A stretch of DNA of 64,000 nt, taken from positions 43,750 to 107,749 of the forward strand of contig JAFYJN010000094.1 of assembly GCA_017538105.1 (NCBI GenBank). The letters are read 5' to 3'. This document shows positions 18,365-25,871 of the stretch, in pieces. How positions within the stretch are numbered: the stretch's first letter is position 1; every line of letters starts with the position of its first letter. The stretch is from Prevotella sp. Its GTDB lineage: Bacteria > Bacteroidota > Bacteroidia > Bacteroidales > Bacteroidaceae. The notes beneath the pieces were generated by a model that saw nothing but the letters and a program-made list of their open reading frames with translations, was not told the DNA's origin and searched no databases. The position numbers and the translations under genes were made by a program.

Positions 18365-19045
18365 TTAATTTCTCTCTTTCACCAAGGAATAGAGTTCCGA
18401 CAACTCGGCACGCGATACACCCAATGCCACTGCTTGGTCAAGGTCTTCCTTGGCCAAGCTTTTTTTCCCGAGGGTGATACGGATAATGGCCCTGTTGAGA
18501 TAGTATTGAGCTTCAGCAGGGTCAAGACGTATGGCCTCTGAAAAATCGTATTCCGCTACATCGTAGAGGTTTCTATCTTTTTCCATACCCGCCCGTGCGG
18601 CATAAGCCACAGCATTGTCAGGATACATCTCTACCAAACGGTTCATTATGTCCATGGCTTCCGTGGGATGATGGTCCCTGTCGTTGAGCAATGCTAACCC
18701 CAACAGTCCTTCAAAATGAGTAGGTTGCATACGCAATAACGATTCATAATCGGAACGAGCAAAGCCATAATTGCCCAATTGGGTATAGGCATAAGCACGA
18801 TAGAAAAAAGCAGTTGCATTCTCGCCTTTTTTCAGGATGAACGTATATTCATCCACGGCATAGTTCCATTGCTCAAGAAGCAAGTTAACGGCAGCTTTGC
18901 GAAACCTCAGATCCATATCGTTGGGATGACGGTCTATCTGCTGTATAAGAATCGACAGCGAGTCACGCCACTCTTGGTTCGACTGTGCTTTGGCCATCGT
19001 GGAAAAGCACAGAGAAAGGATGAAGGCAATTATGCAGTTCTTCAT
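18365..19045 (-). CDS. Secreted TPR-repeat protein
   Basis: 226 residues with a signal peptide (about 1-20, ending MAKAQ) and four to five tetratricopeptide repeats, for example [40 protein letters not shown] and [20 protein letters not shown]. These are protein-interaction modules; no enzyme domain is present. Its start codon overlaps the leuB stop by four bases, so it appears to be the last cistron of the leu operon, though no biosynthetic role is evident. It is probably a periplasmic scaffold of unknown partner. Confidence 0.8.
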
Positions 19046-20112
19046 GCCGTTTCATTCTTTATATAATCAACAATCCACTTGCCCACCTCCTTCGTGCCAT
19101 AATAAGGAGCTCCTTCTACCTGAATCTCCGGAGTTCGGACATTGGCATCGAGGCTGGCATTCACAGCCTGTCGTATGCAGCGGCCTTCGTCAAGGAGTCC
19201 GAAATGCTCATACAGCATGGCAACAGAAAGAATCTGTGCCAATGGGTTGGCAATATTCTGTCCGGTGGCTTGCGGCCATGAACCATGCACAGGCTCGAAA
19301 AGCGGCGTGTGTTCGCCGGTGGAAGCAGAGGGAAGGAGTCCCATGGAACCGGATATGCAACTGCCTTCATCAGTAAGAATGTCACCGAAAGTGTTCTCTG
19401 TCACAATAACATCGAAAAATGTGGGCTCAACAATCATGCGCATGGAAGCGTTATCAACAAACATATAGTCAACAGTGACATCAGGATATAAAGGTTCCAT
19501 TTCTTGAGCCACTTGCCTCCATAAACGACTTGAAGCCAACACATTAGCTTTATCCACTACAGTGAGGTGGTTGCGGCGTTTACGAGCATATTGAAAACCC
19601 ACACGAAGGATGCGTTCCACTTCTGGACGAGTATATTTATTCGTGTCGTAAGCCATGTTGTCGTCCTGATATTTCTCACCGAAATACATGCCACCCGTCA
19701 ATTCACGTATACAGACAAAATCTGCACCATCCACCAGTTCCGGCCTGAGCGGACTCTTATGCAACAGGCAAGGGAATGTCTGTATGGGTCGGATATTGGC
19801 AAACAATCCCAATTTTTTACGCATGGCCAACAGCCCTTGTTCAGGCCGCACCTTGCTCGTAGGGTCATTGTCATATTTAGGGTCACCCACGGCGGCGAAG
19901 AGCACGGCGTCGGCCCACATACAAGTTTGGAACGTCTCTTCTGGGAATGGGTCACCCACTTTGTCAATGGCATCAGCTCCGCAGATGGCATCCTTGTATT
20001 CTACTTGGTGTCCGAACTTGTCGGCCACAGCATTCATGACGGCAATACCCTGTTGCATGATTTCCGGTCCTATGCCATCGCCAGCCAACACGGCTATTTT
20101 AAGATATTTCAT
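19042..20112 (-). CDS. leuB: 3-isopropylmalate dehydrogenase
   Basis: NAD-dependent oxidation and decarboxylation of 3-isopropylmalate in leucine synthesis; the family can also act on beta-methylmalate when citramalate feeds isoleucine synthesis. 356 residues, usual length. Motifs: [13 protein letters not shown] at the N-terminus, [20 protein letters not shown] (about 88-107), [12 protein letters not shown] and [20 protein letters not shown]. It follows the citramalate-synthase-like gene by 38 bases and overlaps the TPR gene. Confidence 0.96.
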
Positions 20113-20150: not shown

Positions 20151-21716
20151 CTAATTATTGTTTTCCTCAAATATATTCAACATCTTGATAGTAGCCTTGA
20201 TGGCCGCCTCGGTCTGGTCGGCATCGAGGGCACGGGTACGTATGGTCTTGTCGTCATATTGCCATGTGATGACGGTTTGCACCAAGGCATCCGTACGTCC
20301 ACCAGGTGGAATGGTAACAGCGTAATTCTCCAACAAGGGGAATGTGCGGTTAAGGTTTGCTTTGTATATTTTTCTCAATGCTTTGACAAAGGCATCATAT
20401 TGACCATCACCCGTGGAGTCTGCCTCATATTGTCGCCCATTGATCTCCACCTTGATACTGGCTAAAGGTTTCAATCCGTAGGATGTGGTGACCATATAAC
20501 TCAGCAGTATCACCTTTTCTTCTGGAGGAGTGTGCTTGAGCACGTCACTGACGATGTATGGCAGGTCTTCAGGTGTGACAATCTCTTTTCTATCGCCCAA
20601 TTCTGTAATACGTTGTGTCACCTTTCGCGTCTGTTCCGGTGTCAGCTCCAGGCCCATCTCCTGCAAGTTCCTGAGGATATTTGCCCTGCCACTTGTCTTA
20701 CCTAATGCATATTCACGCTTGCGACCGAACCTTTCAGGCATGAGGTCATTGCAATAAAGATTGTCTTTGTTGTCACCATCGGCATGAATGCCCGCCACCT
20801 GGGTGAAAACATTTTCACCGACGATGGGTTTGTTGGGTGCCACGGCAATGCCACTATATTCCTCTACTATTTTACTGGCCATATTGAGCTTGTCTTCACA
20901 GATATTGGTGCGAGCCTTGAAATGGTCTTTCAAGATAACCTGCACACTGGCCAAAGGAGCATTACCACAGCGTTCACCCAGACCGTTGACTGTCACGTGC
21001 AATCCTTTGGCACCGGAAAGCACTGCTGCCAGAGAGTTCGACACTGCAAGATCATAGTCGTTGTGGGCATGGAAATCAAAATGCAACGAAGGATAACGCT
21101 TCACCATTTTTCGAAAATACTCTATCACTTGCAAAGGGTTCATGATGCCGAGTGTATCAGGAAGCATGAAACGGGCAACAGGAGTTTTTGTGATGGCATC
21201 CATCAATTGATATACATATTCTGGTGAATCCTTCATACCGTTGCTCCAATCCTCAAGATAGACGTTGACTGTCATACCTTTTGACGTAGCATATTCCACA
21301 CAGTCCACAACATCGGCAATGTGTTGTTCGGGTGTTTTGCCCAACTGTTGCCTGCAATGGCGCAACGACCCTTTGGCCAAGAGATTCACTGTTTTAGCAC
21401 CGCAATCAGCTATCCAATCCACCGACTGGTGCCCATCGACAAACCCCAGCACTTCCACTTTGTGTAGCATGTCAATACGTGAGGCATAGCGGCAAATCAT
21501 TTTCACCGCATCGGCTTCTCCTTCTGACACCCCCGCCGAACCTACTTCTATTCGGTCAACATTGAGGTCCTTCATCAATGTACGGGCAATCATGAGCTTT
21601 TCATGCGGTAGAAAAGAAACACTATTGGTCTGTTCTCCGTCACGTAGTGTGGAGTCCATGATTTCAATGAAAGGTGCTATGCGTTGATAAGCCTTTATTT
21701 GTTTTTCTTCTCCCAT
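20151..21716 (-). CDS. LeuA-like acyltransferase, probable (R)-citramalate synthase
   Basis: Condenses acetyl-CoA with a 2-oxo acid. 521 residues: catalytic TIM barrel (about 15-300) with [16 protein letters not shown], metal-binding [11 protein letters not shown] and [15 protein letters not shown], then the LeuA dimer (regulatory) domain (about 380-505). The same operon carries a second, canonical leuA, so this divergent copy is more likely to make citramalate from pyruvate for isoleucine; LeuCD and LeuB can process both products. The Ile-rich leader peptide upstream fits this. A second 2-isopropylmalate synthase remains possible. Its start lies 22 bases inside leuD. Confidence 0.75.
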
Positions 21717-22285
21717 TCCTCAATCAGTTGTTTATTGTCGATGAGGTAGTCGATATCGTCAAGTCCATTCATCAGGCAATGTTTCTTATATTCATTAATT
21801 TCGAAATGTTCACTGTGTCCTGTGGCTAAATTGGTCACTCTTTGGTTAGGTAAGTCAACCATCACCTCACTTTTAGGATTGGCTTGTATGGTGTTGAACA
21901 ACTCAGCCAAGAATTCCTCACTGACCACCACAGGAAGGACGAAATTGTTGAGTTCGTTGTTTTTATGGATGTCGGCAAAGAAAGAACTGATAACCACACG
22001 GAAACCATATCCGGCAATGGCCCACGCTGCATGTTCGCGTGACGAACCGGAACCGAAATTCTTTCCTGCCACCAATATACAACCACCATATATGGGATTG
22101 TTAAGCACAAAATCTTTTTTGGGTTCCCCGTTATTGTCATACCGCCAGTCGTAGAACAGTTTATCTCCGAAAGCCTCTTTGTCGGTAGCTTTTAGGTAAC
22201 GGGCCGGTATAATCTGGTCGGTATCGACGTTCTCCAATGGCAGGGGAACGCATGTGCTGGTGATAATATCAAATTTCTGTTTCAT
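21695..22285 (-). CDS. leuD: 3-isopropylmalate dehydratase small subunit
   Basis: Swivelling small subunit of isopropylmalate isomerase. 196 residues. Signature segments: PLENVDTDQIIPARYLK (about 16-32) and ILVAGKNFGSGSSREHAAWA (about 70-89). Works with LeuC encoded directly upstream (three-base gap), and its 3' end overlaps the following synthase gene by 22 bases, indicating tight co-translation. Confidence 0.97.
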   Translation of the reverse strand: MKQKFDIITSTCVPLPLENVDTDQIIPARYLKATDKEAFGDKLFYDWRYDNNGEPKKDFVLNNPIYGGCILVAGKNFGSGSSREHAAWAIAGYGFRVVISSFFADIHKNNELNNFVLPVVVSEEFLAELFNTIQANPKSEVMVDLPNQRVTNLATGHSEHFEINEYKKHCLMNGLDDIDYLIDNKQLIEEWEKKNK

Positions 22286-22288
22286 AAC

Positions 22289-23683
22289 TCAGAGAAATAT
22301 TCTTGGGTCAGTTATTTTACCTGTTATCGCTGAGGCAGCCGCCACAAGAGGCGATGCCAGAAGTGTACGTGCTCCCGGTCCTTGTCGGCCTTCGAAATTA
22401 CGGTTACTTGTCGCCACGCAATATTTACCTGCCGGTACTTTGTCGTCGTTCATGGCCAAACATGCCGAACAACCTGGCTGGCGCAGTTCAAATCCAGCTT
22501 CATGGAGAATGTCGTTTATCCCCTCGTCACATATCTGACGATAGACAGCCCAGCTTCCCGGAACAAGCCATGCTACTACATCTTCGGCTTTTGTCCTACC
22601 TTTGACAATGCTGGCAAAAGCCCTGAAATCTTCTATGCGCCCATTGGTACATGCTCCAAGGAAGACATAGTCAACAGGTTTTCCTAACAGTTGTTCGTCG
22701 GGTTCAAATCCCATGTATTTCAGTGCTTTCAGGAAAGAAGGTTTTGCCGACTCCTGGATGCTGTCGAGAGATGGAATGTTATCCGTGATGCCTATACCCA
22801 TCCCGGGATTGGTACCGTAAGTGATACGTGGTTTGATATCTGCTGCATTGAATGACAATTCCTTGTCGAAAACTGCATCATCGCCACTGCGAAGGGTTTT
22901 CCAATACTCCACAGCCCTGTCCCACTCCTCACCTTTAGGAGCGAAGGGTTTATCTTTCAGATAGGCAAACGTTGTATCATCGGGTGCTACAAAGCCTCCT
23001 CGAGCACCCATCTCAATGGAGAGGTTACAGAGAGTCAGCCTACCCTCCATACTCATGTTAGTGACGACGGAACCCGCATATTCCACGAAATAGCCCGTGG
23101 CCCCCGATGTGGTTAGTTGGGCCATCAGGTATAACGCCACATCCTTGGCAACAACGCCAGGCTGTAAGGTGCCATCGATGGTGATACGCATGGATTTCGG
23201 CTTCTGTTGCAGGATACACTGTGAAGCCATGACCATCTCCACTTCAGAAGTTCCTATGCCGAAAGCTACGGCTCCCACAGCACCATGTGTCGATGTATGA
23301 GAGTCTCCGCAGACAATGGTCATCCCAGGCAGGGACAACCCTTTTTCCGGTCCTACCACATGAATAATACCATTATCGGGCGTCATCATACCATAATGCG
23401 TAAGTCCAAACTCCTTGCAGTTTCGCTCCAACGTTTCCACCTGTTTCCTTGATACAGGGTCTTCAATGGGCTTGTCTTGGTCATGGGTCGGAGTGTTATG
23501 GTCGGGCATACAGATAATCTGATTCGGTCGGAAACACTTCAGCCCTCGTGCCCTCATACCTTCAAAAGCCTGTGGAGAGGTCACCTCATGACAGTAAAGC
23601 CTGTCGATATACAGTTGTGTGGGACCGTCAGGGATATTATTCACCACATGTTTATCCCATATTTTGTCGAAAAGCGTATTCAT
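22289..23683 (-). CDS. leuC: 3-isopropylmalate dehydratase large subunit
   Basis: Aconitase-family 4Fe-4S subunit that interconverts 2- and 3-isopropylmalate (and citramalate to beta-methylmalate). 464 residues. Fe-S ligand motifs: [13 protein letters not shown] (about 341) and [13 protein letters not shown] (about 400); substrate segment [15 protein letters not shown] at about 130. Five bases after leuA. Confidence 0.97.
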
Positions 23684-23688
23684 CGTTT

Positions 23689-25188
23689 TCAGTTTTTGAA
23701 TTTATTGATACAGTCGAGATAAGCCTCTACCGATGCCGTGACGATGTCGGTATTGGCACCGAAGCCATAGTACAGGCTACCATTATATTCCACCTGCATG
23801 TGTACCTTACCTACATCATCAGAACCTTTGGAGATAGCCTGAATGGTAAATTCCCGTATGGTCATCTTTTTCTGGATGATTTTCTTCATTGCCTTGATGG
23901 CAGCATCTACAGGACCGTTACCCGTCGAAGCCTCCTCGAATTTCTGTCCGCTGATGTCGAGGCCGATACTTGCCACACTCTTCACGCCCATGCCTGTGGT
24001 CACTTGCAGGAAGTCGAGTTTCACAGCATGCGATTCGGCAGTATCAGCACCGGCAAGCATCAGGATGTCGTCGTCGGTAATCTCTTTTTTGCTGTCGGCC
24101 AGTTTTAGGAACTTCTCGTATATTTTGTCCACTTTGGCCTCGTTTTGCACATTTACGCCCAATACGCCCAGACGGTATTTCAGTGCCGCCCGTCCTGAGC
24201 GGGCTGTCAGAACGATGGAATTTTCGTCGATGCCCACATCTTTGGGGTTCATAATTTCATAAGTTGACACATTCTTAAGCACACCGTCCTGATGAATGCC
24301 ACTGGAATGTGCGAACGCATTGCGGCCTACAATCGCTTTATTAGGCTGTACGGGCATGTTCATCAACCCCGAGACCATCCTGCTGAGAGGATATATTTTC
24401 ATCGTGTTGATATTCGTCTCAATATCCAGTTGCTTATGACACTTCATAATCATAGCAATCTCCTCGAGTGATGTGTTTCCCGCTCTTTCTCCGATACCGT
24501 TTACTGTCACTTCCACTTGTCGTGCCCCATTCATTACTCCGCTCAACGAATTGGCCGTTGCCATGCCGAGGTCGTTGTGACAGTGGGTGGAAATGATGGC
24601 TTTATCTATGACGTCAACATGTTCCTTCAAGTATTTAATTTTCTCTCCATATTCATCAGGCAGACAATAACCTGTCGTGTCGGGAATGTTCACCACAGTG
24701 GCACCTGCCTTGATTACCGCTTCCACCACCTTGGCAAGGTATTCATTATCGGTGCGGCCAGCGTCTTCGGCATAAAATTCCACGTCTTCCACATATTTCT
24801 TGGCATATTTAACGGCGGCAACAGCTCTTTCAATAATTTCCTCGCGTGTGGAATTGAACTTGTATTTAATGTGCAAGTCACTGGTGCCAATACCTGTATG
24901 AATGCGTTTGTGTTTGGCGTATTGAAGAGATTCTGCTGCCAGGTCGATATCTTTCTCCACGGCACGTGTCAATGCGCAAATAGTAGGCCACGTTACTGCT
25001 TTGGAAATCTCTATTACCGAATGGAAATCGCCGGGGCTGGAGATAGGGAATCCCGCTTCGATTACGTCAACGCCCAATAGTTCCAGTTGTTTGGCCACTT
25101 CAATTTTCTCCACCGTGTTAAGTTGGCATCCGGGAACCTGTTCGCCGTCGCGCAATGTGGTGTCGAAGATGTACAATTTTTCTGCCAT
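23689..25188 (-). CDS. leuA: 2-isopropylmalate synthase
   Basis: First committed step of leucine synthesis: acetyl-CoA plus 2-oxoisovalerate. 499 residues. Barrel motifs [16 protein letters not shown] at the N-terminus, [16 protein letters not shown] (about 200) and [17 protein letters not shown]; LeuA regulatory domain in the last 120 residues, expected to give leucine feedback. First gene of leuA-leuC-leuD-synthase-leuB-TPR. The region just upstream contains a promoter, a leader peptide and a terminator-like hairpin ending 17 bases before the ATG, so control by attenuation is likely. Confidence 0.97.
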
Positions 25189-25198
25189 AGTCTAAATT

Positions 25199-25240
25199 AA
25201 AAAACTTGACCTTTCTCACATGGAAGTGGGAAAGGTCAAG
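25199..25240 (-). terminator. Leader terminator (attenuator) of the leu operon
   Basis: On the minus strand a hairpin with 15-base arms (25240-25226 and 25219-25205, one C-A mismatch, TTCCAT loop) is followed directly by TTTTTT and then, ten bases on, the leuA ATG. Its outer arms are CTTGACCTTTC and GAAAGGTCAAG. This is the form of an intrinsic terminator placed between promoter and first gene. Confidence 0.75.
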
Positions 25241-25281
25241 CCAGTTCAACAATTGTTATATATGCATACCTTATCACTTCC
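25222..25281 (-). promoter_or_regulatory. Candidate antiterminator pairing in the leu leader
   Basis: GGAAGTGATAAGG (25281-25269 on the minus strand), at the end of the leader peptide frame, can pair with CCTTTCCCACTTCC (25235-25222), which holds most of the terminator's 5' arm and loop: seven plus four base pairs around a small internal loop. The two structures are mutually exclusive. No folding calculation was run. Confidence 0.6.
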
Positions 25282-25342
25282 GAGGTGCTTTACGCAGTCG
25301 GATTTGTAGTGAGGCAATAATAATGTTTGTAATTGGAGTCAT
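25274..25342 (-). CDS. Ile/Leu-rich leader peptide of the leu operon
   Basis: A 22-codon frame from ATG to TGA starting about 25 bases downstream of the -7 box. It contains ITNIIIASLQIRL, with three consecutive isoleucine codons (ATT ATT ATT), two further Ile and two Leu codons. The stop codon lies inside the candidate antiterminator strand. A ribosome stalled at the Ile/Leu codons would leave that strand free to pair with the terminator arm, allowing readthrough into leuA. This is inference from layout; there is no homology evidence for the peptide itself. Confidence 0.65.
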   Translation of the reverse strand: MTPITNIIIASLQIRLRKAPRK

Positions 25343-25366
25343 TGATACTGTCTTTAAAATCGCCTG

Positions 25367-25398
25367 CAAAATTATAACAAAAATTCTATTCCCGCAAA
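25367..25398 (-). promoter_or_regulatory. Promoter of the leu operon
   Basis: On the minus strand TTTG (25398-25395), 20 bases, then TAATTTTG (25374-25367): a full match to the Bacteroidetes consensus. Start of transcription predicted near 25360, giving a leader of about 170 bases. Confidence 0.75.
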
Positions 25399-25454: not shown

Positions 25455-25871
25455 TCATTTGACTCTATCGAAGTTTTGCACAATGTCAGGATGGTCTTTC
25501 AATGACCAGGTAAGACGTTCAGAAGTAAGTTTTATTATGTCGTATGACTGTTCTTCTGAGTCACCTTCATACATTTCTTTGATAATGGTAATATGTCTAC
25601 CATCTTTACTGAGGATAAATTCGCACTCATATTGACTGTCACCAGCAAACACATCATACACTTCGATAACACAATAACCCGTTCTTTCCGTTTTGGGCGT
25701 AAAAGTATAATAGACATAGCCATCACTGGCAACACCTTCATCATATACTTGTCTCCATTTTCCTGCGAGATATGCAAGGTCGAAGTCATCATCGCCACAT
25801 GAGGAAAAAGAGAAAACAGACAGCATCATGAAAATGATGCTCCCAAATAACATTCTTTTCATTTTTGTCAT
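25455..25871 (-). CDS. Small lipoprotein, lipocalin-like
   Basis: 138 residues. The N-terminus is a lipoprotein signal with the cysteine at about residue 26 (FSFSSCGDDD, the Bacteroidetes-type C followed by acidic residues, which favours surface export). The rest (LAGKWRQVYDEG, VYYTFTPKTERTGYCVIEVY, RLTWSLKDH) resembles small beta-barrel lipocalin-like lipoproteins common in Bacteroides and Prevotella. An internal ATG three codons in is an equally possible start. Function unknown. It ends about 57 bases before the leu promoter, same strand. Confidence 0.65.
   Translation of the reverse strand: MTKMKRMLFGSIIFMMLSVFSFSSCGDDDFDLAYLAGKWRQVYDEGVASDGYVYYTFTPKTERTGYCVIEVYDVFAGDSQYECEFILSKDGRHITIIKEMYEGDSEEQSYDIIKLTSERLTWSLKDHPDIVQNFDRVK

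Follow-up and report, generated by a model that had tools for sequence, protein, structure and literature searches.

The window, by which we mean the whole 64,000-nucleotide stretch of DNA that was analysed, carries on its minus strand a leucine operon in the order leuA-leuC-leuD-cimA-like-leuB, in which the cimA-like gene adjoins leuD. The genes, with the scores and cut-offs of the models that name them, are:

23689..25188, minus strand: leuA, 2-isopropylmalate synthase (NF002086, 732 bits, cut-off 532; TIGR00973, 667 bits, cut-off 599)
22289..23683, minus strand: leuC, 3-isopropylmalate dehydratase large subunit (TIGR00170, 624 bits, cut-off 560)
21695..22285, minus strand: leuD, 3-isopropylmalate dehydratase small subunit (TIGR00171, 196 bits, cut-off 116)
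20151..21716, minus strand: cimA-like gene, probable (R)-citramalate synthase of the isoleucine route (NF042433 CimA, 625 bits, below the cut-off of 950)
19042..20112, minus strand: leuB, 3-isopropylmalate dehydrogenase (TIGR00169, 423 bits, cut-off 353)

The region 5' of leuA holds a promoter, a short reading frame and a set of overlapping hairpins:

25367..25398, minus strand: Bacteroidota-type promoter, read directly, with TTTG at 25398-25395, a 20-base spacer and TAATTTTG at 25374-25367
25274..25342, minus strand: leader reading frame of 22 sense codons, MTPITNIIIASLQIRLRKAPRK, with ATG at 25342 and stop TGA at 25276-25274
25280..25301, minus strand: hairpin 1:2, CCGACTGC (25301-25294) with GCACCTCGG (25288-25280), present in the MFE fold
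25269..25281, minus strand: segment 2, GGAAGTGATAAGG, 13 bases overlapping the leader stop, 5' strand of the antiterminator
25222..25235, minus strand: segment 3, CCTTTCCCACTTCC, common to the antiterminator (2:3) and the terminator (3:4)
25199..25240, minus strand: intrinsic terminator 3:4, with arms 25240-25226 and 25219-25205, loop TTCCAT and tract TTTTTT at 25204-25199

We take TTTG-N20-TAATTTTG to belong to the Bacteroidota-type promoter class. The leuA ATG, at 25188, lies 10 bases past the TTTTTT tract. The first seven bases of segment 2 pair perfectly with CACTTCC on the 5' side of the terminator and, beyond a two-base mismatch, its last four bases also pair (one as G-U). An earlier note on this DNA had claimed a consensus promoter, a 22-codon leader frame containing Ile and Leu codons, a hairpin followed by TTTTTT just before leuA, and a 13-base segment at the leader stop that can pair with the 5' arm of the terminator; each is present, and the note's coordinates fit. 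Three features go beyond that note, namely hairpin 1:2, which makes the design that of a full three-hairpin attenuator, the citramalate-synthase-like gene in the operon, and sister leaders with Val codons before ilvD. In the window's sequence alone, codon bias and folding exceed chance only moderately: Ile and Leu make up 7 of 21 leader codons (p=0.035), with five Ile codons (p=0.011) and two Leu codons, and the leader RNA has a fold z-score of -4.1, equalled by 0 of 200 shuffles. The bias being modest, the claim rests on comparison.

Just 5' of this region lies a gene for 138 residues (25455-25871, minus strand) that is lipoprotein-like by eye and has no NCBIfam match at E 0.001. Farther upstream, between 27033 and 33803 on the minus strand, four consecutive genes (28568-27033, 30347-28581, 32498-30483 and 33803-32502) carry WCGPC, or CYPC in the first of them, and by motif reading only may be a run of thioredoxin-like proteins.

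Of 120 genomes of the genus, own included, 91 have leuA. For comparison with close relatives we used the leuA loci of the best 80 of 533 relatives, nearly all titled Prevotella or Prevotellaceae, which with the window gave 81 upstreams; L003, a near-copy of the window and the one upstream taken from the genus set, was left out of the counts. In 61 of the 81 a motif search found segments 2 and 3 with the correct spacing, and a covariance model built from 60 motif-bearing leaders added 4 of the 20 others (L009, L013, L019 and L024), bringing the element to 65 of 81 by the two methods together. The 16 upstreams without the element by either method are L010, L015, L027, L030, L049, L056, L058, L061, L062, L068, L071, L072, L075, L076, L077 and L079; the available upstream sequence is short in L027 (198 bases), L030 (249) and L015 (297), and L077 has a possible leader by eye. 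L056, L058, L061, L071 and L072 have promoter-like sequence close 5' of leuA and no attenuator, as if leader and hairpin had been lost together. Within the window's own genome the covariance-model search returned one good match, the leuA leader at 80.1 bits; the rest were the antisense of that leader at 18.4 bits and four others at 13.3-15.0 bits.

The promoter pattern TTTG-N17-23-TAnnTTTG occurs in 58 of 60 motif-bearing upstreams (L041 left out) and in 3 of 600 shuffles. The codon before segment 2 (alignment columns 31-33) encodes Leu in all 60 leaders, by four different codons; the codon two before it encodes Ile in 48, Leu in 11 and Phe in one, and the last nine leader codons include 5 to 7 Ile or Leu in every row. 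Of 2667 single-base codon differences between rows in the leader frame 1108 are synonymous, whereas the two other frames give 571 of 3640 and 235 of 4077; by codon position the differences in the leader frame number 1006 at the third, 909 at the first and 752 at the second, the third exceeding the first only slightly. The stop ends 24 bases past the start of segment 2 in 44 of the 60 rows, 16 further than in the window, and 8 bases past it in seven rows, the window included. The earlier note had read the locus as an Ile/Leu attenuator, and this preservation of leader frame and pairings in close relatives supports its reading in silico.

The helices were tested on a 60-row MAFFT alignment of the close leaders against slid controls and 500 shuffles. 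Hairpin 1:2 is paired in 83.0% of 540 cells (slid controls 32.6-51.3%), the antiterminator 2:3 in 91.6% of 774 (38.5-56.4%) and the terminator 3:4 in 89.0% of 839 (37.2-65.0%). In segment 3 the alignment sets nine rows one base out of register, which lowers these pair counts. Changes on both sides affect 4 pairs (17 cells) in 1:2, 2 pairs (12 cells) in 2:3 and 6 pairs (27 cells) in 3:4. For all three helices the observed percentage paired, number of both-side-changed cells and covariation score were reached by 0 of 500 shuffles; the count of both-side-changed pairs was reached by 23 shuffles for 1:2, 364 for 2:3 and 0 for 3:4, and the number of further pair types by 22, 152 and 2, respectively. 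Kinship among the rows inflates all of these tests. Segments 2 and 3 are almost invariant across the 60 leaders, and it is because they hardly vary that 2:3 has only two pairs changed on both sides. RNAalifold of the 60 leaders gave 15 pairs, all of them belonging to 1:2 and 3:4.

Both states were also folded, a check that the earlier note had suggested. With the RNA taken up to segment 3 and everything up to 12 bases past the A-site codon masked, as an assumed ribosome footprint, a ribosome at Ile14 or Leu16 gave antiterminator pair probabilities of 0.93-1.0, one stalled at Ile9 gave 0.40-0.96, and RNA free of ribosomes gave 0.27-0.63; with the ribosome at the stop the antiterminator cannot form. 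The full-length RNA at equilibrium prefers the terminator in every case, that of the stalled ribosome included. The choice between the two structures must therefore be kinetic; kinetic control of attenuation is also found in E. coli trp.

Across the order Bacteroidales the covariance model has matches at E<=0.01 in 97 of 295 genomes, own included, a count that takes in terminator-only and antisense matches. The 29 best model matches outside the window comprise 24 before leuA and five before ilvD (the ilvD of L100 was identified by NF009103, 816 bits, cut-off 710). A model-fitted order-wide alignment of 89 order-level loci contains antisense matches and was discarded. Loci were then picked by protein, since model bias was to be avoided: leuA at E 1e-150 in 53 of 129 genomes, with 51 upstreams used (own and one partial gene left out), and ilvD at E 1e-100 in 55 of 129, also with 51 upstreams used (own, G168, G137 and G141 left out). 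To both sets one fixed rule was applied. As terminator it required a hairpin of -10 kcal/mol or lower before a T-rich tract and, as leader, a frame of 12-40 codons in which Ile, Leu and Val together number at least 6 and make up at least 35%, ending no more than 110 bases before the hairpin. By this rule leader and terminator precede leuA in 22 of 51 upstreams (shuffles 3 of 102) and ilvD in 42 of 51 (shuffles 2 of 102). All 22 leuA cases fall among the 39 loci in which leuA was classed as the first gene of its operon, with none among the 12 in which it was classed as internal, that is, preceded by a frame of at least 100 codons ending within about 160 bases upstream. The leader of the window (7 of 22 codons, the start included) fails this rule, as do many relatives kept by motif, so that the counts from the rule are lower bounds; on the close upstreams it finds 48 of 81 (shuffles 5 of 162) as against the 65 of motif search and covariance model, and by eye it missed clear cases such as L119, L121, L125 and L128.

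Pairing between the bases around the leader stop and the 5' arm and loop of the terminator recurs in this wider set. The 22 leuA pairings have a median energy of -17.0 kcal/mol against a shuffle mean of -10.1 (combined p 1e-14), and the 42 ilvD pairings one of -16.9 kcal/mol against -9.8 (combined p 3e-29); taken singly, 14 of 22 and 29 of 42 reach p<=0.05, and the other 8 and 13 fall short of it. Counted back from the end of the stop, the median start of the pairing is 7.5 bases in leuA leaders (10-90% range -21 to -1) and 7 bases in ilvD leaders (-28 to -2). The letters that pair differ widely across the order, for example in L134, L162, L217, L229 and L251. The comparison of leaders and stems in relatives that the earlier note had called for found them conserved and, with changed letters, present also in other families of the order. 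In L120 the rule chose the wrong frame, which was replaced by hand in the composition tests described below and not in the pairing test.

At the level of the class, 18 leuA loci from beyond the window's family (L191-L208) were inspected by eye; 0 had a convincing leader and terminator, and in several of them leuA is apparently internal to an ilv-leu operon; nothing is therefore claimed beyond the order. As a separate observation, the leuA open frames of 14 of these loci (L195-L208) are only 384-401 residues long, match the window's protein up to residue 375-388 and seem to lack the C-terminal regulatory domain.

The codons of the leaders follow the operon downstream. Leaders of leuA (n=22) contain 22.6% Ile, 22.6% Leu and 2.6% Val, and those of ilvD (n=42) contain 16.0% Ile, 18.4% Leu and 19.7% Val, the Val shares differing at p 2e-9; the total of the three amino acids is built into the rule, the split among them is not. 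The rule finds both leaders together in 18 genomes; in 17 of these the Val share is higher before ilvD than before leuA, with one tie (p 0.0003). Exceptions are 5 of 22 leuA leaders with at least two Val codons and 4 of 42 ilvD leaders with fewer than two. In the window's genus 0 of 13 ilvD upstreams, own included (L175, L176 and L178-L188), have an attenuator, against 42 of 51 in the wider order. We consider the contrast between leuA and ilvD leaders inside one genome to be good evidence of amino acid sensing, even without an experiment.

Why should Ile codons precede a leucine operon? LeuBCD are common to the leucine route and to the citramalate-derived isoleucine route. Nearest to the cimA-like protein is the model of the Leptospira CimA (NF042433), and since its 625 bits fall below the cut-off of 950, the gene is only probably a citramalate synthase. 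The operon may accordingly serve both leucine, through leuBCD and leuA, and isoleucine, through leuBCD and the citramalate synthase, and this second role would probably account for the Ile codons. A cimA-like match occurs in the fetched stretch at 18 of the 22 order-level attenuator-bearing leuA loci; those without one there are L140 (contig end), L145, L167 and L168. L167 and L168 keep their Ile codons despite having no cimA-like gene in the fetched stretch, and the link between the codons and cimA is therefore not strict. In the window's genome no threonine deaminase comes near the cut-offs of three models: the best scores are 62, 55 and 65 bits where 379, 411 and 441 are required. This negative is weak, as only 5, 2 and 3 of 14 control genomes reach those cut-offs. 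Citramalate or another route may be the source of isoleucine in this genome.

Taken together, the leader 5' of leuA-leuC-leuD-cimA-like-leuB is, in our judgement, very probably a classical ribosome-mediated transcription attenuator that senses the charging of Ile- and Leu-tRNA. A predicted short frame carries codons for the end products, an intrinsic terminator lies between it and the first structural gene, and the antiterminator excludes that terminator, with support that is stronger across the order than in close relatives. Hairpin 1:2 is placed in the 60 close leaders where a stalled ribosome could open it, and the position of the stop is such that a ribosome there would cover segment 2. 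We propose the following course of events. RNA polymerase would start near 25360, and as it makes hairpin 1:2 a ribosome would start to translate the 22 codons of the leader. Given charged Ile-tRNA and Leu-tRNA, the ribosome would reach the stop inside segment 2 and cover that segment, and the terminator 3:4 would form before leuA. Should either tRNA lack its amino acid, the ribosome would stall on the Ile or Leu codons and cover the 5' side of hairpin 1:2; segment 2 would thereby be freed, the antiterminator 2:3 would form first and transcription would continue into the operon, which would in this way respond in vivo to the supply of the two amino acids.

Other explanations of the same features deserve consideration. 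The gene at 25871-25455 shares the strand of the element, whose hairpin resembles a good intrinsic terminator, so the hairpin might be a mere terminator of that gene and the short frame accidental. However, a conserved promoter (58 of 60) lies between that gene and the hairpin, the element precedes leuA or ilvD across the order, and the leader-stop region pairs with the hairpin, all of which makes this account extremely unlikely. Somewhat less improbable, if still very unlikely, is attenuation by a factor other than the ribosome (a T-box, a riboswitch or an RNA-binding protein) that chooses between 2:3 and 3:4, with the frame incidental: mutually exclusive hairpins by themselves leave the sensor unnamed, and segments 2 and 3 are more constant in the 60 close leaders than pairing requires. 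Against such a factor stand the lack of any Rfam family, T-box included, at the gathering score, the Ile/Leu codons kept at a fixed distance from segment 2, and the way in which Val versus Ile/Leu codons track the downstream operon.

It is also conceivable that the sequence of the nascent leader peptide, rather than a scarce tRNA, halts the ribosome that makes it, and the occurrence of Arg (54 of 60) and then Leu (60 of 60) near the end of the close leaders would fit such an arrest. The Arg-Leu codons are also the 5' side of hairpin 1:2, however, which could explain their constancy, and most of the order-level leaders listed do not preserve the motif, whereas they stay rich in Ile and Leu; we give this account next to no credence. 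Attenuation through the charging of Ile- and Leu-tRNA remains the reading that we prefer. More broadly, we think it likely that many Bacteroidales place branched-chain amino acid synthesis under leader-peptide attenuators, with Ile and Leu codons before the leucine/citramalate operon and Val, Ile and Leu codons before ilvD. If this is true, RNA polymerase and ribosome keep close pace in Bacteroidota, a phylum mostly without Shine-Dalgarno sites, and the element, which bears on transcription-translation coupling in this group, would make that coupling measurable by a native reporter. It would also represent a conserved and testable switch for making amino acids in bacteria that are common in gut and rumen.

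The remark in the earlier note that such control is rarely described in Bacteroidota agrees with the literature that we found, which offers only general remarks (PMC7366714, PMC9723704). For Flavobacterium psychrophilum 'strong clues' were reported that leader peptides in front of amino acid operons cause attenuation (PMC9723704), and for Bacteroides thetaiotaomicron short frames were found in long 5' UTRs, with leader-peptide attenuation suggested for some (PMC7366714); these remarks concern the same phylum, and the passages in question mention neither a leu or ilv leader nor any structure or comparative test. According to the relevant part of a 2010 survey, its authors, before their own finding in Firmicutes, knew of no leader peptide system outside Proteobacteria and Actinobacteria (PMC2965389). 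By title or abstract, none of the papers listed from the attenuator and citramalate literature deals with a leader of leu or ilv genes in Bacteroidota, although Lopatovskaya et al., 2010 may already predict some. The principle is textbook knowledge, and what seems to be undocumented is its spread in Bacteroidales with codons that match the pathway. As far as its description goes, the ilvB-II motif of Corynebacterium (PMC10272879) is similar in having a leader frame enriched in branched-chain codons and a proposed attenuation of a branched-chain synthesis operon; the likeness is one of description, and unlike the window's element that motif is found in Actinobacteria and before ilvB.

Rfam at the gathering cut-off gave 0 matches in the whole window, the leu and ilv leader families and the T-box included; at E<=5 it gave only a nematode snoRNA and a microRNA family, both eukaryotic, at the level of chance and far below their cut-offs, and at the loci of 10 relatives only a 5S rRNA. 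The classical attenuators of this pathway are those of E. coli leuABCD (leuL) and ilvGMEDA (ilvL). In contrast to these, the window's leader matches no Rfam leader family, has five Ile codons to two Leu codons although the operon is one for leucine, and stands under a Bacteroidota promoter in front of an operon that includes a citramalate-synthase-like gene. With leuL and ilvL it shares a leader frame with codons for the product, three alternative hairpins, a stop near segment 2 and a terminator before the first gene. As judged from these testable defining features, all of which we find here, the element would belong to the same kind as the E. coli leu and ilv attenuators, in a group for which the literature that we found does not document it.
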